DNA from: an uncultured Candidatus Saccharibacteria bacterium
GTDB lineage: Bacteria > Patescibacteria > Saccharimonadia > Saccharimonadales > CAMLKC01
Assembly: GCA_946479025.1 (NCBI GenBank)
Contig: CAMLDM010000026.1
Coordinates: forward strand, 1-12,900
Length of the DNA: 12,900 nucleotides
Direction: 5' to 3'
Below are positions 1-12,900 of the stretch, in pieces (within the stretch, counting starts at the first letter, position 1; the number at the start of each line of letters is the position of its first letter). A model generated the notes under the pieces. The model was not told the DNA's origin. It did not search any database and saw only the letters and a list, made by a program, of their open reading frames with translations. The position numbers and the translations under genes are program-made.

Positions 1-90
1 ACGCCGATCGATCAGTTTGACCAGGAAATTCACCGGTTCCTTGAAAAAATCAAGCAAGAAAAATTGCTGGAGCTACACGCTACAGCGTAA
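1..90 (+). CDS. 3' end of an unknown protein (partial)
   Basis: An open frame runs from the first base of the window to a TAA at 88-90 and encodes the last 29 residues of a protein. The tail is charged and probably helical (…FLEKIKQEKLLELHATA). It is not enough to assign a family. The gene converges on the DUF475 gene, and the two ends overlap by 11 bases (80-90). The start lies outside the window. The reading is supported by frame continuity and amphipathic composition only. Confidence 0.5.
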   Translation, partial: TPIDQFDQEIHRFLEKIKQEKLLELHATA

Positions 91-1141: not shown

Positions 1142-1148
1142 ACTCACC

Positions 1149-1154
1149 AGTATA
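1149..1154 (-). promoter_or_regulatory. -10 box for the DUF475 gene
   Basis: TATACT on the minus strand lies exactly seven bases before the ATG at 1141, so transcription should begin at or next to the start codon. The -35 region falls inside the preceding terminator hairpin and is poor (TTACCC at 16 bp spacing). The call rests on the same -10-to-ATG geometry seen at other starts in the window. Confidence 0.4.
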
Positions 1155-1156
1155 CA

Positions 1157-1188
1157 GCAAAAGCCCCTCCGGGTAAGAGGAGGGGCTT
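1157..1188 (-). terminator. Intrinsic terminator of the surface-protein gene
   Basis: Two perfect 10-base arms (1161-1170 and 1179-1188, AAGCCCCTCC and its complement) enclose an 8-base loop. On the minus strand the hairpin runs into TTTT. It sits about 20 bases past the stop of the PKD/LPHTG gene and just upstream of the DUF475 start, so it should insulate the two genes. Confidence 0.85.
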
Positions 1189-1208
1189 CGTGTGCGGGCT
1201 AAAGTGGA

Positions 1209-3059
1209 TTAGCGCTTCAGCATTTCTGAGAGCAGGCCGCGGCGGCTGGCGATGTAGTAGCCAAGAGCCGTGATCATCGAACCGATTCCGACCGTGCTGC
1301 CGATAAGGCTGCCCGTACCGGTGTGTGGAAGCTCAACAGGAGTTGTGACACATTCGGTGCTGTTCTTTGGCAAGTTTTCTTTGCCTGGAACTTCACATGG
1401 CTTACATTCTTCGCTACCCATTGGTACGCCTGGTTTACATTCTTCCACGCAGCGCTTGTCGCCCATAGGGATGCCAGGCTTACACTCTTCCTGCTTTGGC
1501 TGGCAGGCTACGTCGCCGATAGGCTTGTAGTTGCCGGCTTCGCTTGGCTTTACGGTGATGATCTCACCGGTTTCCGGGTTACACACCTTTACAGGAGTAC
1601 AGGCGATGTCGCCGACTGGTTTGTATTTGTCCTGGTCTTCCTCGTTTACAACGATGATTTCACCAGTTTCAGGGTTACAAACTTCTACCTTGTTTGGCGG
1701 AGTAACCGTTACTTCTGCGGTACAGCTTTCGCTGGTAACCGTTTTGGTCTGACCATCTACTTTTACGGTAACCGACATTTTAGTCGTGTATGTACCTTCT
1801 TTATCGTAGGTGTGGTTAACCGTAGGAGTAGTAGCAGCCTGCTGTTTGCCGTCGCCAAAGTCGAAGGTGTAGCCTACGATCTCAGCGCCGTTTTTAGCAG
1901 TTGCCGTACCGTCGAATTTGTATTCCATGCGGCTGATCTTGGTAGATTCAAGGCTGTCACAAGTATAGACAGGAGCTTCCTCGATAGTAACTTCAGACGT
2001 ACAGTCTTCGCTCGTTACTGTTTTAGTCTGGTTGTCTACTTTCACAGAAACGGTGAGTCGTGCGGTGTAGGTGCCAGCACTTTCGTAGGTGTGCTTGACG
2101 CCCGTAGGATTTGTAGTGGTCTGCTTTTTACCGTCACCAAAGTCGAAGGTGTAGCCGGTAATAGTTGCGCCGCCAGCGGCACTCGCCGTACCATCAAAGC
2201 TGTATTCGGTGCGGCTGATCTTGGTAGATTCAAGACCGTCACAAGTGTAGGTTGGAGTTTCAGGCTGTGGCTTGACAGTGATCTTCATCTGACAGTGCTC
2301 GCCTGAGACCACTTTCGTTGAACTTCCGACCTTTACGTTGGCAGTCACCTTAATAGTATAAGTACCTTCTTTTGCGAAGTTGTGAGAAATAACGTTTGAA
2401 GACTGTGTCTTTTTAGTACCGTCACCGAAGTCGAAGTTATAACCGGTGACGCTGGCGCCATTCTTCGCGCTGGCTTTTGCTGTGAAGCGGTATTCGGTAC
2501 GGCTAAGGTCGACCGCAGCGAGGCCGTCACAAGTATAAACAGGTTTCTTTTTTGCTACGGCAATGACAGGGTTACCACATGAAGTGATGACTGCTGCTTT
2601 AAATTCGCCGTTGGAGTTAAAGAACACAAACGCAACGATTGATTCGCTACCGAATGATACGCTTGGCGTACGCTCGTAGTATGTCCTGCCGCCGATAACT
2701 TTTTTGTGACTGCCAGACATGTTGTGGCGGCCGATAGTCGTGGCGTTCGTTGCAACGGTTTCGCTGCCGACAGTAACGCGTCCGTCTTTGTGAACGGCAC
2801 CCATTTTAGCGTAGGTGCTGGCGTGAGTCATCTCGGTATCCGTCAGGCCGTAGGCGTGGTAGATGTTGTCGAGGTCACCCGTTGAGTTAGTTTTGTATTT
2901 TGATGCCAAAGAGCTCGAGCTCGTCGCACCACAGAAAATAATTGAATTGCTGTCACAATCCGTTGGCAGGGCTTTTGAAATGCCTCCCATAAAGTTCAAT
3001 AACAGTACGCCGCTCACAATAACGGTCAGAGCTGCTAAAGACGCATAAAACTTCTTCAC
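1209..3059 (-). CDS. Secreted PKD-repeat surface protein with LPHTG sorting signal
   Basis: This 616-residue protein is built for the cell surface. Residues 1-30 form a signal peptide (MKK, hydrophobic core, possible cleavage after SKA). Residues about 35-170 are an N-terminal region I do not recognise. Three PKD domains start near residues 175, 271 and 365, each with a GYxFDFGDG motif and one cysteine near each end, suggesting a disulfide per domain. Then come two copies of VCNPETGEI…YKPxGDxAC (cysteines 461 and 493), three short ECKPGxPMG-type repeats, LPHTG at 577-581, a hydrophobic stretch and a basic tail. Such C-termini are anchored by sortase; no sortase gene is in the window. I chose the GTG at 3059 because AAAGGAG sits five bases before it; the frame stays open to 3086. 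PKD modules usually mediate adhesion, so a role in host or surface attachment is plausible but inferred. Confidence 0.9.
   Translation of the reverse strand: MKKFYASLAALTVIVSGVLLLNFMGGISKALPTDCDSNSIIFCGATSSSSLASKYKTNSTGDLDNIYHAYGLTDTEMTHASTYAKMGAVHKDGRVTVGSETVATNATTIGRHNMSGSHKKVIGGRTYYERTPSVSFGSESIVAFVFFNSNGEFKAAVITSCGNPVIAVAKKKPVYTCDGLAAVDLSRTEYRFTAKASAKNGASVTGYNFDFGDGTKKTQSSNVISHNFAKEGTYTIKVTANVKVGSSTKVVSGEHCQMKITVKPQPETPTYTCDGLESTKISRTEYSFDGTASAAGGATITGYTFDFGDGKKQTTTNPTGVKHTYESAGTYTARLTVSVKVDNQTKTVTSEDCTSEVTIEEAPVYTCDSLESTKISRMEYKFDGTATAKNGAEIVGYTFDFGDGKQQAATTPTVNHTYDKEGTYTTKMSVTVKVDGQTKTVTSESCTAEVTVTPPNKVEVCNPETGEIIVVNEEDQDKYKPVGDIACTPVKVCNPETGEIITVKPSEAGNYKPIGDVACQPKQEECKPGIPMGDKRCVEECKPGVPMGSEECKPCEVPGKENLPKNSTECVTTPVELPHTGTGSLIGSTVGIGSMITALGYYIASRRGLLSEMLKR
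1950..2545 (-). repeat. Tandem PKD-coding repeats (in the surface-protein gene)
   Basis: The segments encoding the three PKD domains repeat with a period of 96 then 94 codons, measured between the cysteine codons at 2531, 2243 and 1961. The second and third are closest in sequence, sharing ESTKISR, GYTFDFGDGK and QTKTVTSE. They look like recent duplications and could recombine to change copy number. The third copy continues to roughly 1700. Confidence 0.75.
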
Positions 3060-3107
3060 ACTTTCTCCTTTGTCGGCTCTCCACAAGCCTCACCTTAGTT
3101 TGCTCGT

Positions 3108-3136
3108 ATATTATCATACATTGTCCTTTGTGTCAA
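3108..3136 (-). promoter_or_regulatory. Strong sigma70-type promoter of the surface-protein gene
   Basis: On the minus strand there is a consensus -35 TTGACA (3131-3136), a 17-base spacer, and -10 TAATAT (3108-3113) preceded by TGA, an extended -10. The predicted start near 3101 gives a leader of about 40 bases ending in AAAGGAG before the GTG. It is the closest match to consensus in the window, suggesting high expression of the surface protein. Confidence 0.85.
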
Positions 3137-3207
3137 TTATTGTGGTAATGCTGGTTTTTCAAAGTGTAAATACCCGATTGTTCATGTATATTCGTGCACA
3201 AATTTGC

Positions 3208-3213
3208 TATACT
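3208..3213 (+). promoter_or_regulatory. Extended -10 box for a leaderless kinase mRNA
   Basis: TGC-TATACT is an extended -10 element. It ends seven bases before the ATG at 3221, so the predicted first transcribed base is at the start codon. No clear -35 is visible, which extended -10 promoters can tolerate. It rules against the in-frame upstream GTG at 3194, which would lie ahead of the transcript start. Confidence 0.6.
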
Positions 3214-3220
3214 GTCATAT

Positions 3221-3805
3221 ATGAAATCGTTGAGTCTTAGTAAACCACACATTATTCTTATGGTGGGCGTTCCCGGTAGCGGCAAGTCTTTTTTTGCAGA
3301 AAAATTCGCTGAAACATTCCATGCACCGTACATTGCGCTCGAGAGGATTAGTTCGCTCATGGAAGACCCGAAAGCGGCCGAGGAAATTGCATGGTACCAG
3401 CTGGGCGAGCTGCTAAAAACTGGCCAATCCGTCATTGTTGAGGGCGGCACCGACACGCGTACTGCACGCTTGGAATTCGCTAAAAAGGCCCGTTCAAACG
3501 GCTACGATACGCTGTTTGTATGGGTACAGACCGATCCGGCAACTGCAAAAGACCGTTCCACGCGCATGACTAAGAACAGCACGAACCGCATCATGGAACC
3601 TGAGGAATACGACCGTGCGCTAAAGCGCTTCACTCCGCCGTCCGCCATTGAAAAACCTGTAGTTATCAGCGGCAAACACACTTATGCCACCCAGGCTAAG
3701 GTTGTACTGAAAAAGCTAACCGGCCCACGCGCAGCAATTTCCACACACTCCAGTGCTCCAGTCCGCCTCGAGCAGCCCGGCCGCCGTAATATCACTATTC
3801 GATAG
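3221..3805 (+). CDS. P-loop kinase, AAA_33 / zeta-toxin-like fold
   Basis: A 194-residue cytoplasmic NTP-binding protein. The Walker A motif GVPGSGKS is at residues 16-23, right after a hydrophobic strand, and is followed by helix, strand and acidic elements typical of small kinases (VIVEGGTDTRTAR, then FVWVQTDPATAKDR). An arginine- and lysine-rich segment, DRSTRMTKNSTNR, looks like a LID. The layout fits the AAA_33 group, which includes polynucleotide-kinase-like and zeta-like enzymes; the substrate cannot be told from the sequence. I chose the ATG at 3221 because the -10 box seven bases before it implies leaderless translation. The metallopeptidase gene follows 12 bases after the stop, so the two probably form an operon. 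No antitoxin-like partner is adjacent, which argues against a toxin role. Confidence 0.82.
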   Translation: MKSLSLSKPHIILMVGVPGSGKSFFAEKFAETFHAPYIALERISSLMEDPKAAEEIAWYQLGELLKTGQSVIVEGGTDTRTARLEFAKKARSNGYDTLFVWVQTDPATAKDRSTRMTKNSTNRIMEPEEYDRALKRFTPPSAIEKPVVISGKHTYATQAKVVLKKLTGPRAAISTHSSAPVRLEQPGRRNITIR

Positions 3806-3817
3806 GAATCCCTAACA

Positions 3818-4513
3818 TTGCCAACAATCACCGATGAAGAATTTGGCACGATCACTCTCCGCCGGAGCAGCCGGGCGTCACATGTCCGTATCCGCGTCGG
3901 ACCAGATGGCAGACTGCGCGCGTCGCTTCCACTCTACGCGCCGGTTTTTCTCGTAAAGCGGCTCGTTAAAAATTCCCGCGAACAGCTACGGGCCATGCTC
4001 GCCGAGCAGCACGAAGGCATCGTGTTCGAGCATGGTATGCAGATCGGCAAAAGCCATACACTCATCGTAAGGCCGGTCACCGCCAAGCAAACTACCGCGC
4101 GTCGGCATGGGCAGCAGATCATCGTGTCTCTTCCGGAAGATAAAAGCCTGCAGCATTCATCGGTCGCCCGGAAAGTCCGCGACGTCGTGATCGAGGCGCT
4201 CCGCGTCGAGGCAAAAAGCTACCTCCCAAAACGCCTGGCATATCTCGCGGAGGCCGGCGGCTTCTCCTACGAAAAAATACGCTTTTCCCACGCCAGTGGC
4301 CGGTGGGGAAGTTGCAGCAGCAACGGTACGATCAGTCTCAATATCGCGCTCATGAAGCTGCCGTTCGAACTGATAGATTACGTTCTCGTGCACGAACTAA
4401 GCCATACGGTAGAGATGAATCACTCAAAAGACTTCTGGAATTTGGTTGAATCCGGCGATCCGCAGTATCAAGTTCACCGGGCATCACTAAAAAAAGAAAG
4501 CCCCTCTATTTAA
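3818..4513 (+). CDS. YgjP-type zinc metallopeptidase domain protein
   Basis: A 231-residue protein matching the YgjP-like (SprT-related, formerly DUF45) metallopeptidase family. The zinc site is HELSH (192-196) with the third ligand in the NHSKDFW context at His202, giving HExxH-x5-H. Upstream, RFSHASGRWGSCSSNGTISLN-type residues carry the family's RWGSC motif. The N-terminal half (about 1-110) is the usual beta-rich part containing LRRSSRASHVRIRV. It starts with TTG at 3818; AGGA lies 11 bases before it and no nearer ATG is in frame. The protein is probably cytoplasmic, with no signal peptide. It is co-transcribed with the kinase. Physiological substrates of the family are poorly known. Confidence 0.88.
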   Translation: MPTITDEEFGTITLRRSSRASHVRIRVGPDGRLRASLPLYAPVFLVKRLVKNSREQLRAMLAEQHEGIVFEHGMQIGKSHTLIVRPVTAKQTTARRHGQQIIVSLPEDKSLQHSSVARKVRDVVIEALRVEAKSYLPKRLAYLAEAGGFSYEKIRFSHASGRWGSCSSNGTISLNIALMKLPFELIDYVLVHELSHTVEMNHSKDFWNLVESGDPQYQVHRASLKKESPSI

Positions 4514-4530
4514 AACGCTTACGCCTAGTG

Positions 4531-4536
4531 TATAAT
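4531..4536 (+). promoter_or_regulatory. -10 box of the histidine kinase gene
   Basis: A consensus TATAAT lies ten bases before the ATG at 4547. The predicted start leaves a leader of only about three bases and no room for a Shine-Dalgarno sequence. The -35 region is weak (ATTTAA at 17 bp). Confidence 0.55.
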
Positions 4537-4546
4537 AGCCACAGTT

Positions 4547-6181
4547 ATGTATGGTGGCGGGGTAACAATAAACAAACAGACGGCACAAGTCATTCGCATT
4601 GCCGGGTTAGTGGCGCCTGTTCTACTGCTCGGATACGGACTACTCGTACAGTACGGGATTATTACGAGCAGACACTACGCGAACGACACGGTGTTTTTTG
4701 AAATTATGATTCCGTTCATCGTTTTGGCATGCGTTCAATTCCTTTATCCGTCAAAGCGAGCGTACCAATCAGCAATTCGGCTCTTCGCATACCATATTGT
4801 TGCGATGCTGTACTTCGTGTTTATCGCCGGTTTCTCAACGCCGCTTGTTGCGCTGTGGATGCTGCTATTTCTAGCTTCGTACGCATATTTCTCCCGCCGA
4901 GGCCTCAGTCTTAGCATCCTCGCGCTTGTCGTCTCCCTTCTTATTGATTGGTGCATCCATCCCGACAGCATGATCCTAATAAGCAATACGTTCGCATTTG
5001 TTGCCGTCTCAATCGTAGGACTTACCGCTATTGCCATTAGTCGCGTTCAAGAAGTGGACGGCGTAGAGCTGACACGCAGCAGAGCCCAGGAATCACTTCA
5101 GCACGACCGTCTTCTTACGATCGTCAACAATTTGGCGGATGCGGTGCTTAGCACGGACGAAGACGGTATTATCAGAATATATAATGCAGCAAGCCTCAAC
5201 CTGCTCGATACCAACAATAGCCTGAACGGCCGTCATATCGATGAGATCCTGACACTCCACGACGCCGACAAAAACAAGATCAAGCTTTCCGACTGCCTTC
5301 AAAAAGCACGCGGTGTCGTTGTGCGAGATGATCTGACGATGCCGCTTGAGGACGAGACGATCCGCCTGGAAGTAACCTATTCGCCAATCCGGGGCAGCTA
5401 CAAAAATTCCAAGAAATCGAGCCAGCAGGACGGCTATATTCTTATCCTGCGCGACGTCACAAAGGCCAAAAGTCTGGAGGAAGAGCGCGACGAATTTATT
5501 AGCGTCGTTAGCCATGAACTACGTACGCCGATTACCATCGCCGAAGGAACCATCAGCAACGTCCAGGTGATGATGGGACGACCTAATATCTCGGAGAAGA
5601 TGCTGCAGGACGGAATCGCAACCGCGCATGAACAAGTCATGTTCCTGGCAAAGATGGTAAATGACCTCAGTACGCTTTCCCGTGCCGAGCGCGGCGTTGC
5701 CGACACGCCGGAAGTTATCGGGGTACGCGGCCTTGTCGATGATCTTTATAACGAGTATTCTCCGCAAGCCAAAGCCAAAAATCTTCATTTTGACCTTGAT
5801 CTTGGCACACATCTCGGCGAAGTCACTGCCAGCAGCCTTTACCTGCGCGAGCTCCTGCAGAACTTCATCACCAACTCGATCAAATACACGAAAGAAGGCG
5901 GCGTTACGCTGGCAGTCAAACGCAAGGACGACAAGATCATTTTCGAAGTGAGCGACACCGGCATTGGTATCAGTAAGTCTGATCAGGCGAAGATCTTCAA
6001 CAAATTCTACCGCTCCGAGGATTATCGCACTCGCGAGACGGGCGGCACGGGCCTTGGCCTGTACGTTGCCGTCAAGCTGGCGAAAAAACTCGGCACCAAG
6101 ATCGAAATGAAAAGCCGCCTCAATCACGGGTCAACCTTTGGCTTCGCGCTGCCGTCAAAGACAAAAACAAAGGACGCGTAG
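4547..6181 (+). CDS. Membrane sensor histidine kinase with PAS domain (orphan)
   Basis: A 544-residue sensor kinase. About six membrane segments occupy residues 12-165. A PAS-like domain covers about 185-310 (LADAVLSTDEDGIIRIYNAA…). The HisKA helix carries the phospho-acceptor His323 in SHELRTP. The ATPase domain has the N box around Asn443 (FITNSIKYTKEGG), the G1 box DTGIGI (470-475) and the G2 box GGTGLGL (499-505). All catalytic landmarks are present, so the kinase should be active. There is no extracellular sensor domain, so the signal is probably sensed in the membrane or by the PAS pocket. No response regulator lies on either side, so its partner must be elsewhere. It starts at the ATG nearest the -10 box, with no ribosome binding site. 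Confidence 0.93.
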   Translation: MYGGGVTINKQTAQVIRIAGLVAPVLLLGYGLLVQYGIITSRHYANDTVFFEIMIPFIVLACVQFLYPSKRAYQSAIRLFAYHIVAMLYFVFIAGFSTPLVALWMLLFLASYAYFSRRGLSLSILALVVSLLIDWCIHPDSMILISNTFAFVAVSIVGLTAIAISRVQEVDGVELTRSRAQESLQHDRLLTIVNNLADAVLSTDEDGIIRIYNAASLNLLDTNNSLNGRHIDEILTLHDADKNKIKLSDCLQKARGVVVRDDLTMPLEDETIRLEVTYSPIRGSYKNSKKSSQQDGYILILRDVTKAKSLEEERDEFISVVSHELRTPITIAEGTISNVQVMMGRPNISEKMLQDGIATAHEQVMFLAKMVNDLSTLSRAERGVADTPEVIGVRGLVDDLYNEYSPQAKAKNLHFDLDLGTHLGEVTASSLYLRELLQNFITNSIKYTKEGGVTLAVKRKDDKIIFEVSDTGIGISKSDQAKIFNKFYRSEDYRTRETGGTGLGLYVAVKLAKKLGTKIEMKSRLNHGSTFGFALPSKTKTKDA

Positions 6182-6182
6182 G

Positions 6183-7322
6183 TTATCTATCAATCTTTAT
6201 GCTGTTAGCCGGGGAAGCAGCGATCGCTACGTTACGCCCCTTCCATTTAGTGGTGTGCCTGGTGTATCCCCACACGCTCTGCACAAATAAAATAAGCTCC
6301 TGAAACACGACCACCGGCCAAAGCAGCCCGCCAAGCCACCACTTTCCACGCCATACATAGCTCGTATAAACACCGTAAAGCGCCATGAAAGCAGAGGTCA
6401 TCCAGAAGGCCATCGCCTGTGTCTCGGTCCAGCCGAAAATAAACCCACTTAGCAGCGTAGCCGACGGCAAGTTCAGAAGTGCCAGCACGACAAAGCCCAA
6501 AATCGCACTCGATGGCGTTCCACCAACCGTAGGATAAAGCACGCGGCGGCTGGTTTCCAACTGCGATTGCCACTTTTTCTCGTAACTGACGCCAAGCTCC
6601 TCATTGCTTATAACGCAGCGGTACGTACGCCCAAACAAAGCTGCAATGTACGCTTCCGGGTTCACGGTGTTTTTATATAACGTCAATCCATCTGCTTTCT
6701 TTAAAAGAGCTTCGCGATTAACTATCCATGCGGCACACGCCGCGGCCGGCATTTTAGGCCGGTTCAAGATCAACAGCCAAAAATACCTGAGCGTCCCCAG
6801 CAGAACGCTCGCCCGGCGAATGTCGGTCCGCTGCGGAATCACCGAAAGCATTTCTAGTTTCTCGTGGGCCATCCGACCCACCATCCGGCTAATCGTCGTC
6901 GGCTGGATAAACGTGTCAACATCAAGAAACAGCGCATACGTACCGCTCGCTTCGCGTGCCAGCACGTCTAAGGCATGATTTTTACCGAGCCAGCCCTTTG
7001 GCAATGCCGTTCCTGGCACAAACCGCACGCCTGCATGCGCAAACGAACGCACAAGAATGGACGTATCATCAGCCGAACTGTCATCAAAGACAATAATCTC
7101 AAGCTTTTTATAATCGCTTGCCAGCACCCGTTCCAGACACTGCGTCATAGCATGCGTCTCGTTCCTGGCCGGGATACAGACGCTGACGCTCGGCGCACTC
7201 GTGGGCGGCTTGTAGGAATCCCGGATAAGCGATTGCTTCAGCGAGCGCTGCAGCTGCAAGGTAAAAAGCACGATGATACCGGTTAGGATGCTCGAAATTA
7301 TAATACATAAAACCATATCCAC
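6183..7322 (-). CDS. Membrane-anchored family 2 glycosyltransferase (CrtQ/HpnB-like)
   Basis: A 379-residue GT-A glycosyltransferase. An N-terminal membrane helix (about 4-24) is followed by the catalytic domain: SVCIPARNE (47-55), the nucleotide-binding DDSSADD (80-86), GWLGKNHAL (110-118) and DVD (134-136), which binds the metal and sugar nucleotide. Three or four hydrophobic segments follow after about residue 275. The GWLGKNHAL motif and topology resemble carotenoid or hopanoid glycosyltransferases such as CrtQ and HpnB, but no isoprenoid genes are here, so the acceptor is unknown; a membrane lipid is a reasonable guess. The start is GTG 7322, or ATG 7316 two codons later; neither has a ribosome binding site. 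A TACGAT box at 7332-7337 would again give an almost leaderless mRNA. The gene is convergent with the histidine kinase, with one base between stops. Confidence 0.88.
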   Translation of the reverse strand: MDMVLCIIISSILTGIIVLFTLQLQRSLKQSLIRDSYKPPTSAPSVSVCIPARNETHAMTQCLERVLASDYKKLEIIVFDDSSADDTSILVRSFAHAGVRFVPGTALPKGWLGKNHALDVLAREASGTYALFLDVDTFIQPTTISRMVGRMAHEKLEMLSVIPQRTDIRRASVLLGTLRYFWLLILNRPKMPAAACAAWIVNREALLKKADGLTLYKNTVNPEAYIAALFGRTYRCVISNEELGVSYEKKWQSQLETSRRVLYPTVGGTPSSAILGFVVLALLNLPSATLLSGFIFGWTETQAMAFWMTSAFMALYGVYTSYVWRGKWWLGGLLWPVVVFQELILFVQSVWGYTRHTTKWKGRNVAIAASPANSIKIDR

Positions 7323-7343
7323 GATGTACTTATCGTACCATGC

Positions 7344-7372
7344 TTGACGTCGGGAGGGTAGCGCGTTATAGT
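7344..7372 (+). promoter_or_regulatory. Promoter of secE-nusG
   Basis: -35 TTGACG (7344-7349), a 17-base spacer and -10 TATAGT (7367-7372). The predicted start near 7379 leaves a leader of about 45 bases, holding a small hairpin (GCCT…AGGC, about 7387-7400) and the GGGAG ribosome binding site. It overlaps the divergent glycosyltransferase promoter region. Confidence 0.75.
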
Positions 7373-7424
7373 GGTACTTGACAGTCTGCCTACGAGCAGG
7401 CTATTTAATTTGGGAGAGCACACT

Positions 7425-7781
7425 TTGGCAACGAAGGATAAAAAAACAGCAGCCAAAAAAGCTGCGCCGACAAAGACGAACGTGACTCGCATCAAAGCGA
7501 GTAGCACTACCGCACCCAAACAAAAAGAAACGAAACCAACCGAAACAGTAAAAAAGCAGACCGCAAAGACAAAGGGTGTCCGCAACCCGCTTAAGCCTCT
7601 CGCGGCAATCGGCGGTTATTTCGCCGGTGCATGGTACGAGTTAAAGCAGGTCCGCTGGCCAAACCGCCGCGCTACTTGGGGAATGACGGCGGCAATGTTG
7701 GCATTCACCGCGTTTTTCGTGGTACTTATTTTGCTTCTCGACGCGTTATTTAAATATCTATTTGATCTAATTTTAGGATAA
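7425..7781 (+). CDS. secE: Preprotein translocase subunit SecE
   Basis: A 118-residue subunit of the SecYEG translocon, which clamps SecY in the membrane. The C-terminal 60 residues carry the family core: an amphipathic segment with the signature WYELKQVRWPNRRATWG, then one transmembrane helix (AAMLAFTAFFVVLILLLDALF). The N-terminal half is an unusually long, Lys/Ala/Thr-rich, probably disordered basic extension. I place the start at TTG 7425, because GGGAG lies eight bases before it and the predicted transcription start rules out the in-frame GTG at 7371. nusG follows after six bases, the classic secE-nusG pair. Confidence 0.93.
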   Translation: MATKDKKTAAKKAAPTKTNVTRIKASSTTAPKQKETKPTETVKKQTAKTKGVRNPLKPLAAIGGYFAGAWYELKQVRWPNRRATWGMTAAMLAFTAFFVVLILLLDALFKYLFDLILG

Positions 7782-7787
7782 GGAACT

Positions 7788-8333
7788 ATGTCACAAAACC
7801 GATACGACTCAACCCGCCAATGGTACGCTATTCACACTTACAGCGGCTACGAAGAAAAAGTAGCCGACAGTATCCGCCAGAGAATTAACGCCGTCGACAT
7901 GGCTGACAAAATCTTTGACGTCATGGTACCGAAGGAAAAACAAATCGAAATTAAAAACGGCAAACGCAAGGTCGTTGAAAAGAAAATTTTCCAGGGCTAC
8001 GCGCTAGTTGAGATGAAGCTCACCGACGAAACGTGGTTCATCGTACGCAACACGCCGGGCGTTACCGGCTTCGTTGGCAGCGGCACCGAGCCAACACCAG
8101 TTTCCGACTCTGAAATCACCAAGATCAAGAAACGTATGGGCGTCGATGATCCGAAGCACCAGATCGACTTCAAGGAAGGCGAGGTGGTCTCTATCACCGA
8201 CGGTCCGTTCAAGGGATTCGACGGCGCGATTTCAGAAATCGACACCCAAAAGGGCAAGATCAAAGTCATGGTCAGTATGTTCGGCCGCGATACGCCGGTT
8301 GAGCTCGACGCACTCCAGGTTACCAAAGTCTAA
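7788..8333 (+). CDS. nusG: Transcription termination/antitermination factor NusG
   Basis: A 181-residue NusG. The NGN domain (about 10-115) begins with QWYAIHTYSGYEEKVADSI and includes FQGYALVEM and RNTPGVTGFVG. It binds the RNA polymerase clamp and promotes processive elongation. The C-terminal KOW domain (about 125-181) has FKEGEVVSITDGPFKGFDGAI, the part that contacts S10 or Rho. The length is typical of the family. The ribosome binding site AAGGA lies just before the ATG. It is co-transcribed with secE and closed by a terminator right after the gene. Confidence 0.97.
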   Translation: MSQNRYDSTRQWYAIHTYSGYEEKVADSIRQRINAVDMADKIFDVMVPKEKQIEIKNGKRKVVEKKIFQGYALVEMKLTDETWFIVRNTPGVTGFVGSGTEPTPVSDSEITKIKKRMGVDDPKHQIDFKEGEVVSITDGPFKGFDGAISEIDTQKGKIKVMVSMFGRDTPVELDALQVTKV

Positions 8334-8346
8334 GGAAAATAGAGGA

Positions 8347-8371
8347 AGACCCGCATACGGCGGGTCTTTTG
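8347..8371 (+). terminator. Intrinsic terminator after nusG
   Basis: An eight-base perfect stem (AGACCCGC 8347-8354 with GCGGGTCT 8360-8367) and a five-base loop, followed by TTTTGTTTAT. It ends the secE-nusG transcript 14 bases after the nusG stop. Confidence 0.9.
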
Positions 8372-8376
8372 TTTAT

Positions 8377-8673
8377 ATGTCAGATCACGAGCACACCGTC
8401 ATCCGCGCATTCATTCCGCACCCCGAAGAGCCGACCAACTACCTTCGGTCTCCGAGCGGCGAAATTCCAGCGTACCTCCACGATCACAACAATGGCACGT
8501 ACGAACAAGGACTTCGCAAACTCGGCCAAGGATTGATCGGCTGCATCAACCTTTCCGTTCACCGGCGCGTACCGACGCGCGAATTGGAGGAAACGGCAGG
8601 GGAGATCGTCTACGAAACGAAGCCGCTCGACGGTTTCACGCCTCATCCGGACGATCTGTTCCAATGGCATTAG
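8377..8673 (+). CDS. Small hypothetical protein between nusG and rplK
   Basis: A 98-residue acidic, histidine-rich soluble protein of no family I recognise (N-terminus MSDHEHTVIRAFIPHPEEP, C-terminus TPHPDDLFQWH). No membrane segment or known motif is visible. The frame stays open upstream through the nusG terminator, but the ATG at 8377 is the only sensible start. No Shine-Dalgarno sequence precedes it, because the terminator's T-tract ends just before the ATG, and no -10 box is at the leaderless distance. Expression may rely on readthrough of the nusG terminator. Composition and length make it a likely gene, but the weak start signals keep confidence moderate. Confidence 0.55.
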   Translation: MSDHEHTVIRAFIPHPEEPTNYLRSPSGEIPAYLHDHNNGTYEQGLRKLGQGLIGCINLSVHRRVPTRELEETAGEIVYETKPLDGFTPHPDDLFQWH

Positions 8674-8676
8674 CCC

Positions 8677-8705
8677 TTGCTTTTTCTCCTTAAAAAGCAT
8701 ATAGT
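8677..8705 (+). promoter_or_regulatory. Promoter of rplK
   Basis: -35 TTGCTT (8677-8682), a 17-base spacer and -10 TATAGT (8700-8705), the same -10 as secE. The predicted start is near 8712. The leader then contains a small hairpin with ACTCG (8719-8723) and CGAGT (8730-8734) arms before AAGGA and the rplK start. Confidence 0.7.
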
Positions 8706-8751
8706 AGTGAAGTTACGCACTCGGTAATACGAGTAAAAGAAGGAAAATATA

Positions 8752-9177
8752 ATGGCAAAGAAAATTATCGGCAACTTGAAGCTTCGTATTCCAGCTGGCC
8801 GTGCAACCGCAGGTCCTCCAGTAGGTAGCACGCTTGGTCAGTGGGGTCTGAACATGATGGACTTCATCAACCCGTTCAACGATGCTACTAAAGGTGACAT
8901 GGGCAAAGACGTTATCGTGCATATTCAGGTGTTCGAAGACCGCACCTTCGCCTGGAAAAGCCTTGGCCAGCCAGTAGACGACGCGATCCGCGACGCTATC
9001 GGCATCAAAAAAGGAAGCGGCAAGCCACACAGTGAAAAAGTTGGCAAGATCACCCGCGCACAGCTTGAAACGATCGCAGAAGCTAAGAAAGATTTTCTTA
9101 ACGCGAACGACATGGAAGCCCGCGTAAAGATCATCGCCGGCACCGCACGCTCAATGGGCGTTGAAGTCGTCGAATAA
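8752..9177 (+). CDS. rplK: 50S ribosomal protein L11 (uL11)
   Basis: A 141-residue L11, full length. The N-terminal domain (1-70) has the family signature as LRIPAGRATAGPPVGSTLGQ, followed by GLNMMDFINPFN. The C-terminal RNA-binding domain (75-141) has KKGSGKPHSEKVGKITRAQL and GTARSMGVEV. It binds 23S rRNA at the GTPase-associated centre. The usual PxPP of the signature reads AGPP here, and the residue after LGQ is Trp instead of His or Arg. The ribosome binding site AAGGA lies about seven bases before the ATG. Most bacteria have rplA directly after rplK; here a terminator follows. Confidence 0.97.
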   Translation: MAKKIIGNLKLRIPAGRATAGPPVGSTLGQWGLNMMDFINPFNDATKGDMGKDVIVHIQVFEDRTFAWKSLGQPVDDAIRDAIGIKKGSGKPHSEKVGKITRAQLETIAEAKKDFLNANDMEARVKIIAGTARSMGVEVVE

Positions 9178-9196
9178 AGCAACCATTTTTAAAAAT

Positions 9197-9228
9197 GCAC
9201 CGCATCCGAAAGGTATGGTGCTTTTTAA
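9197..9228 (+). terminator. Intrinsic terminator after rplK
   Basis: GCACC (9197-9201) pairs with GGTGC (9217-9221). The stem continues inward with a few wobble and mismatched pairs to a CGAAA loop, and TTTTTAATTTTATTT follows. It lies about 20 bases after the rplK stop and ends a single-gene unit. A perfect 14-base palindrome (CATTTTTAAAAATG) lies just upstream, between stop and hairpin. Confidence 0.8.
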
Positions 9229-9249
9229 TTTTATTTACATTTTTGCAAA

Positions 9250-9317
9250 GTTATTTGTACGCATAATGGGAGTATGCTACGCTTAGTGTACGTAGGTAAC
9301 ATGTAAAGGAGGAACAC
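9250..9317 (+). promoter_or_regulatory. Leader region of the 100-residue protein gene
   Basis: Possible -10 boxes are CATAAT (9262-9267) and TATGCT (9273-9278); neither has a good -35. A dyad, CTACG (9277-9281) and CGTAG (9291-9295) around a nine-base loop, lies next to the second box and could be an operator or leader hairpin. The leader ends in AAAGGAGG five or six bases before the ATG at 9318, the strongest ribosome binding site in the window. Confidence 0.35.
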
Positions 9318-9620
9318 ATGAACACCGAAACACTTTCTCTCAATACCAAGGAGCAGCTTGAACCACGAGGCACCACGCTTGCAGATCTCGAAGCAATCAT
9401 CGAAAATGCCGCGGCGGCGCTAACGCCCCACGAACGGGCAATTCTGGAAAATCCCAACCCGACGCCACCAGAGCTAAGGGTAGCAGCTCAGGAAGCAAGC
9501 CCCGAAATAACGTTCGACGGACTTCTGCGAAAGACTCCGGAAATTGAAAGTCCTGGCCGCGACCACTCCATGAAGTTAAATATCAAAAAGGAGACTGACT
9601 GGGCATTTAAAGCCTGGTAG
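9318..9620 (+). CDS. Small protein, candidate precursor peptide of the synthetase-like enzyme
   Basis: A 100-residue soluble protein of no family I recognise. Residues 19-45 (TTLADLEAIIENAAAALTPHERAILEN region) look helical, 46-65 are Pro-rich, and the tail 68-100 is short, basic and aromatic, ending KETDWAFKAW. There is no signal peptide or cysteine. The consensus ribosome binding site implies high translation. The asparagine-synthetase-like gene starts 22 bases after its stop with no ribosome binding site of its own, suggesting coupling. A small protein ahead of such an enzyme is how lasso-peptide precursors are arranged, and macrolactam geometry is possible (for example Gly68 to Glu75, or Ser84 or Met85 to Glu92). 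However, the lasso leader motif and the Thr at -2 are not clearly present. It could equally be a partner protein. Confidence 0.75.
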   Translation: MNTETLSLNTKEQLEPRGTTLADLEAIIENAAAALTPHERAILENPNPTPPELRVAAQEASPEITFDGLLRKTPEIESPGRDHSMKLNIKKETDWAFKAW

Positions 9621-9642
9621 GCGGCGTGCGTGGTTTATCTTC

Positions 9643-11238
9643 ATGTTTTTAACCATACGGCGCAGCGACAACAGTAAGCCCGCAACACTATTTGAACAGG
9701 CGCAGACCGCCACACATCTGCATCTCTCTAACAATAAAGTACAGGTGCAGCTTGCCAAGCGACTCAGCTTCCCAATGACATACTGTCAGAAATTAGATGA
9801 TGGCAGTTTTCAGCTTGGTTATGGCAATACCAGCCCCTCACAAAACGAAGAGTTTTTGAAAATAACCATTCAAAAAGACGGAACAATTGATATTGAACGC
9901 GATGCGCGCGCGACGCTACCAGTTTTTTACGGTTACAGCGAAGGGATTTTCATACTAAGCAACGATTACGGCACTGTGGTTGAAGCGTTACCGAAGCTCA
10001 CTTTAAATTCAGACGACATCGTGCTTACTATCGCGCCGCGGCGCTTCCACCGCCCAACCTTGTGGCATGAAGTGGGGATGCTTCGTAGCGGAGAGGCGCT
10101 CCACGTCGGCGTGAGTAGGACGCCCGTTAAAACCATGCCTCGTGGACGAACATGGATCGGCACCAACGACCTGCCGGAATCTGACCCCGAAGAATTTCTG
10201 CCACGTTTGGATGACACGCTGGCTCGACACCTCCGCGCCTACGTTCCGTCGCCCGAGGAGCATCCGCCAGGATTTGAGGTAAGTGGCGGTCTGGACTCTT
10301 CAACAATTCTCTTATATTTTGCTCAAACGCACCCTGGTGCAGCCTGGCATGGCATGAGCATCTCGTATCCTGATTTGCAGCGAGTCACACAAGCCAATAA
10401 ACTCCACGCCATATCGAGCTACGCGCCGAACGGAACGCTTAGTCTTATAAAGATGGAGCAGATGTACGACGAGGCATCCGCCAGGTTCACCACCGCTGAT
10501 CCACGACCGTTCTCGGTCATCGACAGCACCGGCACCGCAAGCTTTGAAACGATCGCAAGCACTCTTGAAAAAGCGGGAGTGACAACTATCTTCAAAGGCA
10601 ACGGCGGCGATAACCTTTTCGATCACAACCTCACCGCAAGCTGGCAGCTCGACATAGGAGAAGAACCGATGAGGCGCGTATTGGCTCAACTACCGAACGA
10701 CTTTCTTACCGACCATTTTCGCGATCATCTGCGCGCCCTTAACGAGGGTAAAGGCGACGAAGAATATAAGCTTCCGACCTTATCTACAAGCGCCTGTGGA
10801 TCAGACCCAATAGTCAACTCATATATCCACCACGGCATCTGGCCGGCAAATCCATTTCTAGATACCGATTTCTTTACCTACTGCCAGGGGCTTCCGTACA
10901 AGTTCAAGCACAACAAGCATATTTCAAGGATTTACTACCGCGCTAAAAACTGGCCATCCGTTCTTTATGATGAGACATACCCGAACGAAGTCCCCGAAGA
11001 CGATCTCGAGAAGCCATACCTGACTGATGAGTTCGCGCAGATCATAGAGGATTTCGCGAACCGATCAGTGCTCGACTACCTGGGATACATCGACGCAGTA
11101 AAAATGCTTCAGGCATACCACGACATCAAAAATGGTGAGAGAGCCATCGATCCGGGAATTTTCACCATAAGCCTGTGGCTCAATATAGAATTTAATTTGC
11201 ATCTTGCAATGCGCGCAGGCCAATGGCAGCCTAATTAA
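9643..11238 (+). CDS. Asparagine-synthetase-like amide synthetase (lasso cyclase-like)
   Basis: A 531-residue protein. Residues about 1-165 resemble a degenerate glutamine amidotransferase domain (DARATLPVFYGYSEGIFILSND), but there is no Cys at position 2, so glutamine cannot supply ammonia. The synthetase domain follows: the ATP/PPi loop SGGLDSS (214-220) and a second motif, GNGGDNLF (319-326), replacing the GGDE of true asparagine synthetases. Enzymes of this type, such as the lasso cyclases McjC/LarC and beta-lactam synthetases, adenylate a carboxylate and form an intramolecular amide. The C-terminal third includes HNKHISRIYYRAKNWPSVLY and is less recognisable. The gene starts at ATG 9643 with no ribosome binding site, just downstream of the 100-residue gene. 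The synthetase fold is secure; the reaction is inferred. Confidence 0.85.
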   Translation: MFLTIRRSDNSKPATLFEQAQTATHLHLSNNKVQVQLAKRLSFPMTYCQKLDDGSFQLGYGNTSPSQNEEFLKITIQKDGTIDIERDARATLPVFYGYSEGIFILSNDYGTVVEALPKLTLNSDDIVLTIAPRRFHRPTLWHEVGMLRSGEALHVGVSRTPVKTMPRGRTWIGTNDLPESDPEEFLPRLDDTLARHLRAYVPSPEEHPPGFEVSGGLDSSTILLYFAQTHPGAAWHGMSISYPDLQRVTQANKLHAISSYAPNGTLSLIKMEQMYDEASARFTTADPRPFSVIDSTGTASFETIASTLEKAGVTTIFKGNGGDNLFDHNLTASWQLDIGEEPMRRVLAQLPNDFLTDHFRDHLRALNEGKGDEEYKLPTLSTSACGSDPIVNSYIHHGIWPANPFLDTDFFTYCQGLPYKFKHNKHISRIYYRAKNWPSVLYDETYPNEVPEDDLEKPYLTDEFAQIIEDFANRSVLDYLGYIDAVKMLQAYHDIKNGERAIDPGIFTISLWLNIEFNLHLAMRAGQWQPN

Positions 11239-11412
11239 TTCTCAACACCCGCGGTCGCAGCATTGCCAAGCGTCTCATGACGATGGCGCACGACGAAAGC
11301 AAGGGGACTGGGGCGGAGAAGATCAACCTCACCTCGAATCCTCACCGCGTCGAGGCACGAGAGTTCAGTGACCTCGCAGCCAGCGGGGATTTCACTTTCC
11401 CGTAGCTTTTCG
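11239..11412. other. Gap between the synthetase-like and Nudix genes
   Basis: About 170 bases with no terminator after the synthetase-like gene and no convincing gene. A minus-strand open frame (11441 to 11235) crosses it without start signals. Only the Nudix -10 box at its right edge is identifiable. Confidence 0.4.
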
Positions 11413-11418
11413 TATACT
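11413..11418 (+). promoter_or_regulatory. -10 box for a leaderless Nudix mRNA
   Basis: TATACT ends six bases before the ATG at 11425, so transcription should start at the A of the start codon. The -35 is weak (TTCACT at 11391-11396, 16 bp spacing). This geometry favours 11425 over the in-frame ATG at 11368. Confidence 0.6.
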
Positions 11419-11424
11419 TGCTTT

Positions 11425-11955
11425 ATGGCACATATCCACACCGAAAAAGGCCAACACGACCATACTATCAGTATTTATATCTTTCGTACCGATTTTGCCG
11501 AGCCGAAGGTGATGCTCCATTTTCACCGAAAAATGAAAATCTACGCCCAGTTTGGCGGGCATATTGAACTGAACGAGACTCCATGGCAAGCAGCTCTTCA
11601 CGAACTCCGTGAAGAAAGCGGATACGATATCGACCAGCTGAAGATTTTACAGCCACCGCAGCGACTGAAACGCGTCGAAAATGCCATAGTTCATCCGCAA
11701 CCAGCTGCGCATGTTACCATGACATACCCATCATTTGGCGGCCACAACCATACCGACAGCACGTATGTCTTCACGGCAGACGGGGAGCCTCGATACAAGC
11801 CGGAGGAAGGCGAGTCCACCGACATCCGTCTCTTTACGCGCGAGGAGGTCCTCGCCTCGGATCAGATCGACACCATTACGCGCGACATAGCCTTGTATGG
11901 TTTTGATGAGATTCTGGCTAACTGGCAGCCGCTTTCCCTGGGTGAATTCAATTAA
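11425..11955 (+). CDS. Nudix hydrolase
   Basis: A 176-residue cytoplasmic hydrolase of nucleoside-diphosphate-linked compounds. The Nudix box is GHIELNETPWQAALHELREE followed by SGY (about residues 47-69). It fits GX5EX7REUXEEXGU except that the first Arg is His. The metal-binding glutamates are intact, so activity is likely. Flanking strands (HTISIYIFRTDF, KVMLHFH, KMKIYAQFGG) and a C-terminal helix fit a single-domain Nudix fold. The HTISIYIF…KVMLHFHRK opening resembles ADP-ribose or NTP hydrolases, but the substrate cannot be assigned. I chose the ATG at 11425 because a -10 box ends six bases before it. It has its own promoter, so it need not be tied to the synthetase-like gene. Confidence 0.88.
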   Translation: MAHIHTEKGQHDHTISIYIFRTDFAEPKVMLHFHRKMKIYAQFGGHIELNETPWQAALHELREESGYDIDQLKILQPPQRLKRVENAIVHPQPAAHVTMTYPSFGGHNHTDSTYVFTADGEPRYKPEEGESTDIRLFTREEVLASDQIDTITRDIALYGFDEILANWQPLSLGEFN

Positions 11956-11977
11956 GTTGTAAAAACTGCTTATGTCA

Positions 11978-12008
11978 TTGACCGCCCAGCTATTGCCGGC
12001 GCTATAAT
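11978..12008 (+). promoter_or_regulatory. Promoter ahead of a structured non-coding region
   Basis: -35 TTGACC (11978-11983), a 19-base spacer and a perfect -10 TATAAT (12003-12008). The predicted start near 12015 lies about 260 bases ahead of the next gene, so the transcript begins with a long untranslated stretch. The spacer is two bases longer than ideal. Confidence 0.55.
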
Positions 12009-12014
12009 AAAGAA

Positions 12015-12230
12015 GGTCGTGAGAGTACTGGTGGAGAACCTTTTTACTAGCAGACCTTAATCAAACACCCGTGGGCATACACACTGGCTGAGCAGCAAAG
12101 CGTCCCTGTCGCACGTACATATTCGATCGCTACTTCAGGATCAAAGCAGTTTTCAAGCGGTGATTTCTGTTTCCTCGTAGCTTACTCTATAAATTCCGCA
12201 GCTGACCATCTTTCTAGTTGTCAGTTTTTT
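12015..12230 (+). ncRNA. Candidate structured RNA or attenuated leader
   Basis: About 215 bases bounded by a promoter and a T-tract hairpin, with no plausible coding frame. Local pairings found by eye include AAGGTC (12013-12018) with GACCTT (12053-12058) enclosing CTGGT/ACTAG arms (12028-12032, 12046-12050); AGAGTA (12022-12027) with TACTCT (12183-12188), joining the two ends; and ATCGCT (12126-12131) with AGCGGT (12156-12161). The 5' GGTC could instead pair with GACC at 12204-12207, which overlaps the terminator stem. I see no signature of tmRNA, SRP RNA, RNase P RNA or tRNA. It is either a free small RNA or the regulatory leader of the 82-residue gene. Confidence 0.42.
12202..12230 (+). 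terminator. Terminator-like hairpin upstream of the 82-residue gene
   Basis: CTGAC (12202-12206) and GTCAG (12220-12224) form a five-base stem with a 13-base loop, followed at once by TTTTTT (12225-12230). The stem is short, so termination may be partial or conditional. Its left arm overlaps GACC, which could pair with the RNA's 5' end. Confidence 0.5.
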
Positions 12231-12275
12231 ATTTACCTAAAATAAAACAGTTTTTCTCGAAAAAGGAGTAAGAAT

Positions 12276-12524
12276 ATGGCAAAATCTATCACCATTAACA
12301 GTCCGGTTGACGTCACCGCTATCGGCTTCGCTCGGAACATGCGGACATACCCACGCCGGATCGAATTCGAAGGCATGACCTACGATTTCATCGACGCGGG
12401 GCTCCGTACCATCATCCGAAAAGGCGACCGCATCGCGCAGATCTTCACGATGACGGATGGAGCAAACGACTACCGCCTCAGAAGCGAGGCGGGAAACTGG
12501 ACACTACTGAGCATGACTCGGTAG
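12276..12524 (+). CDS. Small hypothetical protein behind a long leader
   Basis: An 82-residue soluble, basic protein with no recognised family (MAKSITINSPVDVTAIG…, core FEGMTYDFIDAGLRTIIRKGDRIAQIFTMTDG). The alternating strand-like pattern suggests a small beta-rich fold. There is no signal peptide or membrane segment. AAAAAGGAGT lies eight or so bases before the ATG, an excellent ribosome binding site, and TTTTT-CTCG-AAAAA (12251-12264) could form a weak stem against it. A strong terminator follows seven bases after the stop, so it is a single-gene unit. The neat promoter, ribosome binding site and terminator make it a real gene. Confidence 0.8.
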   Translation: MAKSITINSPVDVTAIGFARNMRTYPRRIEFEGMTYDFIDAGLRTIIRKGDRIAQIFTMTDGANDYRLRSEAGNWTLLSMTR

Positions 12525-12530
12525 AGATGA

Positions 12531-12567
12531 GCAAAGGAGCCGTACAGGAGCGGCTCCTTTGCTTTTT
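12531..12567 (+). terminator. Strong intrinsic terminator after the 82-residue gene
   Basis: A perfect 12-base stem (GCAAAGGAGCCG 12531-12542 with its complement 12551-12562), an 8-base loop and TTTTT. It is the strongest T-tracted terminator hairpin in the window. Confidence 0.93.
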
Positions 12568-12574
12568 GACTTAA

Positions 12575-12621
12575 TTAATAAAAAATTATAGAGTAGTTAT
12601 AGTTCATTCAGTTAAGTGAAC
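12575..12621 (+). promoter_or_regulatory. Promoter with a possible operator dyad for the last gene
   Basis: TTAATA (12575-12580), 17 bases, then TATAGT (12598-12603), the same -10 as secE and rplK. An alternative is TTGACT (12566-12571) with TATAGA (12587-12592) at 15 bp. A dyad, GTTCA (12602-12606) and TGAAC (12617-12621), overlaps the end of the -10 and the predicted start, a position where a repressor or leader hairpin could act. Confidence 0.45.
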
Positions 12622-12643
12622 GCTTGAGAAACAGGGAGGTTCT

Positions 12644-12850
12644 ATGTTCGGCATGTCGAGCTTCGCAACAGGCTTCGTACTGATCGCAGGCATCGCCGGC
12701 ACCGTCACACTCTTCGTCGGGTGCTTCAACGCCTGGGCAGGGGCCTCGATCGCCAAGTCCGCAAGTAGGACTCAGATCGCCCAAGCCAACGCGCGCAAAG
12801 CCGAGGCCGAGCTGAAGCGTCTCGAAGGACGCGATGACTCATCCGCCTGA
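12644..12850 (+). CDS. Small single-pass membrane protein with a coiled-coil-like tail
   Basis: A 68-residue protein. Residues 8-35 form one hydrophobic segment (ATGFVLIAGIAGTVTLFVGCF), and residues 40-62 form a charged, Ala-rich helix (TQIAQANARKAEAELKRLEG) with coiled-coil character. GGGAGG lies five bases before the ATG, a strong ribosome binding site. No family is recognised; small membrane proteins of this shape often modulate larger complexes, but nothing here identifies one. The gene is visibly richer in G and C than its neighbours and is the only one in the window ending in TGA, so it may have been acquired or belong to a different sequence context that continues rightwards. Confidence 0.72.
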   Translation: MFGMSSFATGFVLIAGIAGTVTLFVGCFNAWAGASIAKSASRTQIAQANARKAEAELKRLEGRDDSSA

Positions 12851-12855
12851 CCTCT

Positions 12856-12889
12856 GGGCCGCGGCGTGACGCACAGTCCGCCGCGGCCC
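12856..12889. repeat. GC-rich perfect inverted repeat after the last gene
   Basis: Arms of 11 bases, GGGCCGCGGCG (12856-12866) and its exact complement (12879-12889), with a possible extra GAC/GTC pairing inside. It begins five bases after the stop and would form a very stable hairpin. No T-tract follows within the window, so it may be a Rho-independent-like or mRNA-stabilising hairpin, or a different element. Confidence 0.65.
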
Positions 12890-12900
12890 GCCCGCAATTC

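Follow-up and report, generated by a model that had tools for sequence, protein, structure and literature searches.

A gene for a 100-residue protein that lies directly upstream of a gene for an asparagine-synthetase-like enzyme raises the question of whether the two form a peptide-modifying pathway and, if so, of what kind. We analyzed such a pair in a contig of an uncultured Candidatus Saccharibacteria bacterium (CAMLDM010000026.1, positions 1 to 12,900; this whole 12,900-nucleotide stretch is referred to as the window). The initial annotation had described the pair as a two-gene peptide-macrolactam cassette resembling a lasso pathway. The two parts of that proposal fared differently: a reduced unit of precursor and synthetase is plausible, given that short ORFs precede the clade nearest to the enzyme and that the enzyme stands apart from ordinary AsnB, but the lasso identity is unsupported. 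Together the two genes may make up a minimal pathway that modifies a peptide, though probably not a lasso peptide. Our main reading, which we give a probability of roughly 0.5, is that the pair would be a two-gene RiPP-like unit of a non-lasso kind: the enzyme would activate a carboxylate on the small protein as its adenylate, which an amine would then trap.

Such an activity would have company. Synthetase-like enzymes that act on ribosomal peptides include lasso, amidating and nitrile-forming enzymes, and about 300 RiPP-linked synthetase-like candidates are uncharacterized, according to the available portion of a 2026 preprint (PMC13060819). CPR genomes with graspetides are described in the accessible part of PMC8939145, and CPR genomes with LAP and lantipeptide genes in that of PMC7298704. 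Lasso peptides from Saccharibacteria were absent from the titles and abstracts surveyed.

Two genes downstream of rplK

The genes of the window run in the order secE, nusG and rplK, then a hairpin, the 100-aa gene, the 531-aa enzyme gene and a NUDIX gene. The features of the pair, with the basis for each, are:

9197..9226, + strand: terminator-like hairpin with a T run, separating the pair from rplK (folding)
9305..9312, + strand: Shine-Dalgarno sequence AAAGGAGG of the small gene (sequence)
9318..9620, + strand: 100-aa protein, proposed substrate, precursor-like (codon use; no relative found)
9643..11238, + strand: 531-aa glutaminase-less asparagine-synthetase-like enzyme (PF00733 at 37.6 bits, predicted fold, placement)
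10282..10302, + strand: SGGLDSS ATP pyrophosphatase loop, residues 214-220 (alignment)
10597..10614, + strand: GNGGDN, residues 319-324 (alignment)
10840..10845, + strand: W400-P401 of the IWPxxPF motif (alignment)
10987..10989, + strand: E449, beside the AsnB lysine column, 448 (alignment)

Both ORFs are real genes. The coordinates claimed for them (9318-9620 and 9643-11238) were confirmed, the distance between them measures 22 nt as claimed, and the ribosome binding site attributed to the 100-residue gene is present at 9305-9312, ending five bases ahead of the ATG. Codon use was compared with that of nine training genes from the same window (0.16-0.59). The small ORF scores a gene-like 0.191 bits per codon in frame, against -0.54 and -0.44 in the other forward frames and -0.26 when reversed, and the enzyme scores 0.12. 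The short gap and the strong ribosome binding site suggest co-expression, and no terminator-like site was found on the + strand between the two genes by pattern scan. The hairpin that separates the pair from rplK folds at -11.5 kcal/mol (9192-9233; z -2.54, with 6/200 shuffles equally good) and is absent from the output of the terminator pattern scan.

The usual neighbor of rplK is rplA (L1). Here, at 9178-12900, rplK (L11) is followed by the small gene and the enzyme instead, and the four ORFs scanned downstream of rplK, the small gene aside, gave no match to L1. The scanned window ORFs also gave no match to a transporter, a protease or an RRE, nor to the PF13471 leader protease. Other genes in the window include a DUF475/TerC-family membrane protein (80-1147, - strand) with a 300-aa ORF on the opposite strand, a protein of 625 aa that contains three PKD stretches and, at its C-terminus, weakly matches an LPXTG-type anchor (1209-3086, - strand), and, at 3194-4513 (+ strand), a kinase-like P-loop protein (AAA_33, zeta-toxin-like) with a YgjP-like metallopeptidase after it. 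Two short ORFs without a Pfam or NCBIfam match lie at 12276-12850 (+ strand), and the terminator-like hairpin between them (12529-12564) has 15 pairs.

The 100-aa protein had few matches of any kind. A shared-word search of 5.8 billion proteins, limited in reach, recovered only the protein itself among 24 candidates; Pfam, PADLOC and PHROG gave no match, and the one NCBIfam match scored 16.9 bits against a cut-off of 425. Lasso precursors are marked by a Thr at position -2, a YxxP leader motif and a ring of 7-9 residues that joins Gly, Ala, Ser or Cys to Asp or Glu. The initial annotation had suggested several rings in the tail of the small protein, but spacings of 7-9 from G/S/A/C to D/E are no more frequent there than by chance (residues 66-100 contain 2, and 5000 shuffles of this tail average 2.15), and position -2 of the three suggested rings is occupied by Phe, Asp and His. 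It had also remarked that the classic leader motif is not evident, and YxxP is indeed absent from the 100-aa protein.

Position of the enzyme among synthetase-like proteins

We searched 5.8 billion proteins for relatives of the enzyme, taking candidates by exact shared words and scoring the best 7995. Among the matches listed were P0002 (59% identity, a 386-aa fragment), P0003 (39%) and P0004 (30%). These three metagenomic relatives and the window enzyme itself (P0001) are referred to as the window family. Among the matches listed by a profile search were 11 further synthetase-like proteins, more distant than these. The MFLTI start of the enzyme is supported by its relatives, because P0004 begins identically and P0003 begins alike, with MASFLTI. 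Two further points of the initial annotation are borne out by the protein: the SGGLDSS loop is kept at residues 214-220, and the N-terminal Cys is missing from the start, MFLTIR. PADLOC matched neither of the two window proteins, nor P0003 or P0004, and a defense system was set aside.

An earlier structure model from 4 sequences was poor (pLDDT 44.5). With 15 sequences, the predicted structure reached a pLDDT of 76.8 and a pTM of 0.80, and the model has a synthetase fold along its whole length. Beta-lactam synthetase 1JGT, carbapenam synthetase 1Q15 and TsnB9 7YLZ were among the best fold matches; identity to these and to AsnB 1CT9 is 11-14%. A lasso cyclase is not named among the structure-library matches listed, which has no bearing on the lasso question either way. 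Against the AsnB-type family model TIGR01536 the enzyme scores 32.1 bits, and P0004 scores 63.9 bits against the AsnB NCBIfam model (cut-off 267.1 in both cases). P0004 and P0003 score 32.9 and 16.2 bits against the lasso model NF033535 (cut-off 525), and the window enzyme scores 20.5 bits against NF033561, the albusnodin/ikarugamycin macrolactam cyclase model (cut-off 300).

The nearest clade consists of uncharacterized glutaminase-less synthetase-like enzymes from plasmids of rhizobia, Xanthomonas and Streptomyces and from two IMG/VR contigs. Examples are Rhizobium hidalgonense WP_138386464.1, Xanthomonas sacchari WP_043095693.1 and Streptomyces sp. F12 WP_024127717.1. No description of the clade was found among the titles and abstracts surveyed. 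A tblastn search of plasmids with P0004 gave 66 records, some of which are N-acetylglutaminylglutamine amidotransferases outside the clade. Our set of 17 clade loci comprises 15 diverse plasmid loci, chosen from 42-66 records per search, and the two IMG/VR loci. The remaining plasmid records, many of them near-copies, lie outside the set, and related loci within it are not independent (about ten lineages). In seven Rhizobium plasmids, mostly from clover (H45-H51), roughly the first third of a clade enzyme is all that is present, at 95% identity; these truncated copies are apparently remnants and were left out of the clade counts.

Three clade members match phrog_29141 at 173-338 bits, yet a phage origin was rejected: tblastn with P0004, the window enzyme and P0018 found no phage record. 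Among IMG/VR sequences, 0/25 candidate stretches were retained with alignment A1 and 2/27 with alignment A4. Candidate homologs in Bacillota were also rejected, matching phrog_29141 only weakly (17.7-25 bits, frames of 613-762 aa, 11/398 genomes and 0/14 controls). The GTDB contigs gave a single 22% match, from Lachnospiraceae (1/65 candidate stretches), whose frame begins like AsnB.

A profile of the 17 clade members, built without the window family, gives P0001-P0004 scores of 110.1, 104.6, 130.2 and 126.7 bits. The same proteins score 67.6, 42.1, 70.7 and 87.9 bits against a profile of 19 AsnB-type proteins, and 0.5, -0.6, -0.7 and 13.4 bits against a profile of five lasso cyclases, a narrow control set drawn from Bacillota only. 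The clade profile reaches at most 75.0 bits on AsnB-type rows and 46.7 on lasso rows. When one subclade at a time was left out, the window family scored 80-130 bits, the left-out members 179-359 and the AsnB-type rows at most 71.3. The affinity resides in the C-terminal part (48-64 bits to the clade, against 15-20 to AsnB-type proteins and about 0 to lasso cyclases); the ATP-loop part does not separate the groups (37-54 bits to AsnB-type proteins, 37-46 to the clade). In a tree of 44 rows, with the fragment P0002 left out, a branch with 100/99 support divides the window family and the clade from the AsnB-type and lasso rows; the tree is unrooted, it contains long branches, and the composition of some rows is biased. 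Profiles and tree thus place the window enzyme as a deep sister branch of the plasmid clade, not inside it. They also set it apart from ordinary AsnB-type proteins, as the initial annotation had needed; the missing Cys2, the score under the family cut-off and the tree together rule out an ordinary AsnB.

Individual residues were compared in 45 rows (4 window family, 17 clade, 5 lasso and 19 AsnB-type). Three positions, Q250, W400 and E449, are all present in the 21/21 window and clade rows. At position 250 the other 24 rows have E or D. W400 occurs in 4/4 window family, 17/17 clade and 5/5 lasso rows and in 0/19 AsnB-type rows, and the adjacent P401 in 4/4, 16/17 and 0/5 of the first three groups, Pro not being among the AsnB-type residues listed. 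E449 (4/4 and 17/17) is replaced by R in 5/5 lasso rows, and Arg429 is common to the window enzyme and the lasso controls, unlike AsnB. The catalytic Cys2 is found in 14/19 AsnB-type rows and in 0/4 of the window family, of which P0002 is a fragment. The dyad positions 324 and 329 of the window enzyme were mapped from spacing, following the description in the available part of PMC13060819. The dyad Tyr (329) occurs in 0/21 window and clade rows, 0/5 lasso rows and 16/19 AsnB-type rows, and is Asn in the window enzyme. Column 324 is N in the window enzyme, E, E and D in its three closest homologs and E in 16/17 clade rows. AsnB-type rows have K in column 448 (19/19); the clade has K in 10, R in 5, P in 1 and V in 1, so that a basic residue is kept in 15/17, and the window family has N in 3 (the window enzyme among them) and Y in 1. 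By alignment, then, the enzyme departs from AsnB at some positions in the way that lasso cyclases do, and has residues of its own clade in addition. The GGDN that had been likened to lasso cyclases does not hold as a resemblance: 5/5 controls have [AQ]RGN, whose N aligns with D323 of the window enzyme.

Short ORFs and neighboring genes at clade loci

Inspection by hand gave, at 17/17 clade loci, a 31-54 aa ORF that has a ribosome-binding-like site and lies upstream of the enzyme at a gap of -7 to 258 nt. This was a hand choice, in that several loci offered more than one candidate with such a site and one was chosen; at L028 and L032 an unannotated ORF was taken over an annotated small gene. 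Six of the chosen ORFs lie in or equal annotated hypothetical genes (L019, L021, L024, L026, L027 and L030), and for Streptomyces sp. F12 (L024) an internal ATG was used, which gives 42 aa of an annotated 61-aa ORF. We also counted by a rule (ATG, 30-60 aa, a Shine-Dalgarno-like site, a gap of -10 to 260), itself set after the clade ORFs had been seen. With the chosen starts, ORFs of this kind precede 16/17 clade enzymes and 3/62 other genes. Because the 62 controls had been listed by hand and some genes were overlooked, the count was repeated with annotated starts, giving 15/15 plasmid loci against 6/87 other genes, these being the listed annotated CDS of at least 100 aa from the 15 plasmid tables; among those of the other genes with at least 150 nt free upstream the figure is 3/58. 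For L032, the enzyme start at 4001 (tblastn) was used in the hand inspection and the chosen-start count and the annotated start at 4152 in the profiles and the annotated-start counts.

The short ORFs of the clade are conserved as proteins. Differences by codon position 1/2/3 number 4/9/26 in a Rhizobium ORF pair, and 7/9/15, 7/5/17 and 9/8/18 among three 31-aa ORFs. A [GSN]DSx(3-4)Y motif is present in 10/17. The 100-aa protein of the window lacks this motif and is about twice as long as these ORFs; it does lie upstream of its enzyme at a 22-nt gap, but with 100 aa it falls outside the 30-60 aa range of the rule. Compared with each of the 17 short ORFs it shows no similarity (65 to 500 of 500 shuffles as good), and a likeness to a Rhizobium short ORF noticed by eye was rejected as homology, being at shuffle level (123/500 as good). 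Since the small protein is unlike the clade short ORFs, its role rests on position and analogy.

Other genes recur at these loci. ABC transporters lie near the clade enzyme at L021, L024, L029 and others, phosphotransferase and GNAT neighbors at L026, L029 and L031, and a phosphotransferase alone at L025 and L032. At L029, L031 and L032, the 31-aa ORFs end in GDSxRxRY- or GDSARFRY-like sequences and a phosphotransferase follows the enzyme, with a GNAT gene at L029 and L031, which suggests that these three are a compact peptide cluster. AHL synthase genes near three rhizobial loci (L019, L030 and L032) hint at quorum control of the peptide pair. On one IMG/VR contig, a 2OG-Fe(II) oxygenase gene lies upstream of the clade enzyme (L023, 1-669). 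The leader protease family PF13471 is found 2.2-3.3 kb from the cyclase match in 5/5 lasso controls, one of which (L008) has a small gene of the paeninodin family (46.3 bits, cut-off 27). PF13471 occurs in 1/17 clade records, about 194 kb from the enzyme, and thus near none of them.

Proposed activity, alternatives and known systems

We propose that the small protein would serve as substrate. The enzyme would bind ATP and adenylate a carboxylate of the small protein, either a Glu or Asp side chain or the C-terminus; adenylation is argued for by the ATP loop and the synthetase fold, and a carboxylate on a ribosomal peptide is suggested by the paired small gene. An amine would then displace AMP with no glutaminase involved; without the glutaminase Cys, glutamine is less likely to donate the nitrogen. 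An internal Lys or the N-terminus as nucleophile would give a lactam or isopeptide, and free ammonia, the alternative, would give an amide. The absence of the Glu-Tyr dyad, whose Tyr the lasso controls also lack, weakly favors a lactam-type outcome.

A somewhat unlikely alternative is that the enzyme has a small-molecule substrate (amino acid, sugar or nucleotide precursor) and that the gene beside it encodes an unrelated or a regulatory protein. Beta-lactam and carbapenam synthetases, TsnB9 and AsnB have small-molecule substrates, and the first two, with the hydroxyamidotransferase TsnB9, are among the best fold matches; the small protein also brings neither a found relative nor a precursor hallmark. 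The regular pairing of the sister clade with short ORFs conserved as proteins speaks against this alternative, as do the narrow gap and the strong ribosome binding site in the window. That the synthetase is decaying or catalytically dead and has been retained as a binding protein is improbable: the frame is open over 531 aa with gene-like codon use and an intact ATP loop, and the relatives at 59, 39 and 30% identity keep the IWPxxPF motif and E449, although Glu324 and the basic residue 448 have been lost from the window protein. As both are mostly kept in the sister clade, their loss does favor an altered or reduced activity, and it is possible that the activity of the window enzyme is altered or that it has none. 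A genuine reduced lasso pathway, whose leader protease and RRE would be encoded at another place in the genome, is very improbable, for the features held in common with the five lasso controls (no glutaminase Cys or dyad Tyr; Trp400 and Arg429, unlike AsnB) and the weak NF033561 and NF033535 matches, far under their cut-offs, are set against about 0 bits to the lasso profile of five Bacillota sequences, a different motif 2, no nearby leader protease at any of the 17 clade records and no lasso core or leader signal.

Returning to the two-gene RiPP-like unit, it is conceivable, and we suggest it tentatively, that these loci represent a new RiPP class, in which a glutaminase-less Q250/W400/E449 synthetase would form a lactam or amide without a lasso-type protease, and which would extend from rhizobial and Streptomyces plasmids to the window lineage, there as two genes with a 100-aa substrate. 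With its own residues, its short genes and no lasso protease nearby, the clade is a defined test case, whose genes could be expressed from rhizobia or Streptomyces in culture.

PesC nitrile synthetase and the C-terminal amidases TsrC and ScdTA, as described in the available part of PMC13060819, are likewise synthetase-like and act on a ribosomal-peptide carboxylate; PesC takes its nitrogen from glutamine or ammonia, and the five enzymes compared there keep the Glu-Tyr dyad, which the window enzyme lacks. NF033561 macrolactam cyclases are matched weakly by the window enzyme and 4/5 clade members tested (20.5-35.4 bits, cut-off 300), a likeness of profile score only. Lasso cyclases (NF033535; L007-L011) belong to the same synthetase family and resemble the window enzyme in lacking Cys2 and the dyad Tyr and in having Trp400 and Arg429, but differ in their [AQ]RGN motif, in R at 449 and in a leader protease 2-3 kb away. 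The plasmid clade agrees with the window enzyme in size, in the missing glutaminase Cys, in GGD(E), [IL]WPxxP(F/L), Q250 and E449, and in a short ORF directly upstream. It differs in sequence (15-19% identity), in the size of its short ORFs (31-54 aa) and their lack of relation to the 100-aa protein, and in the transporter, phosphotransferase, GNAT and AHL synthase genes near several of its loci. The window pair would be a distant, stripped-down form of the clade unit.
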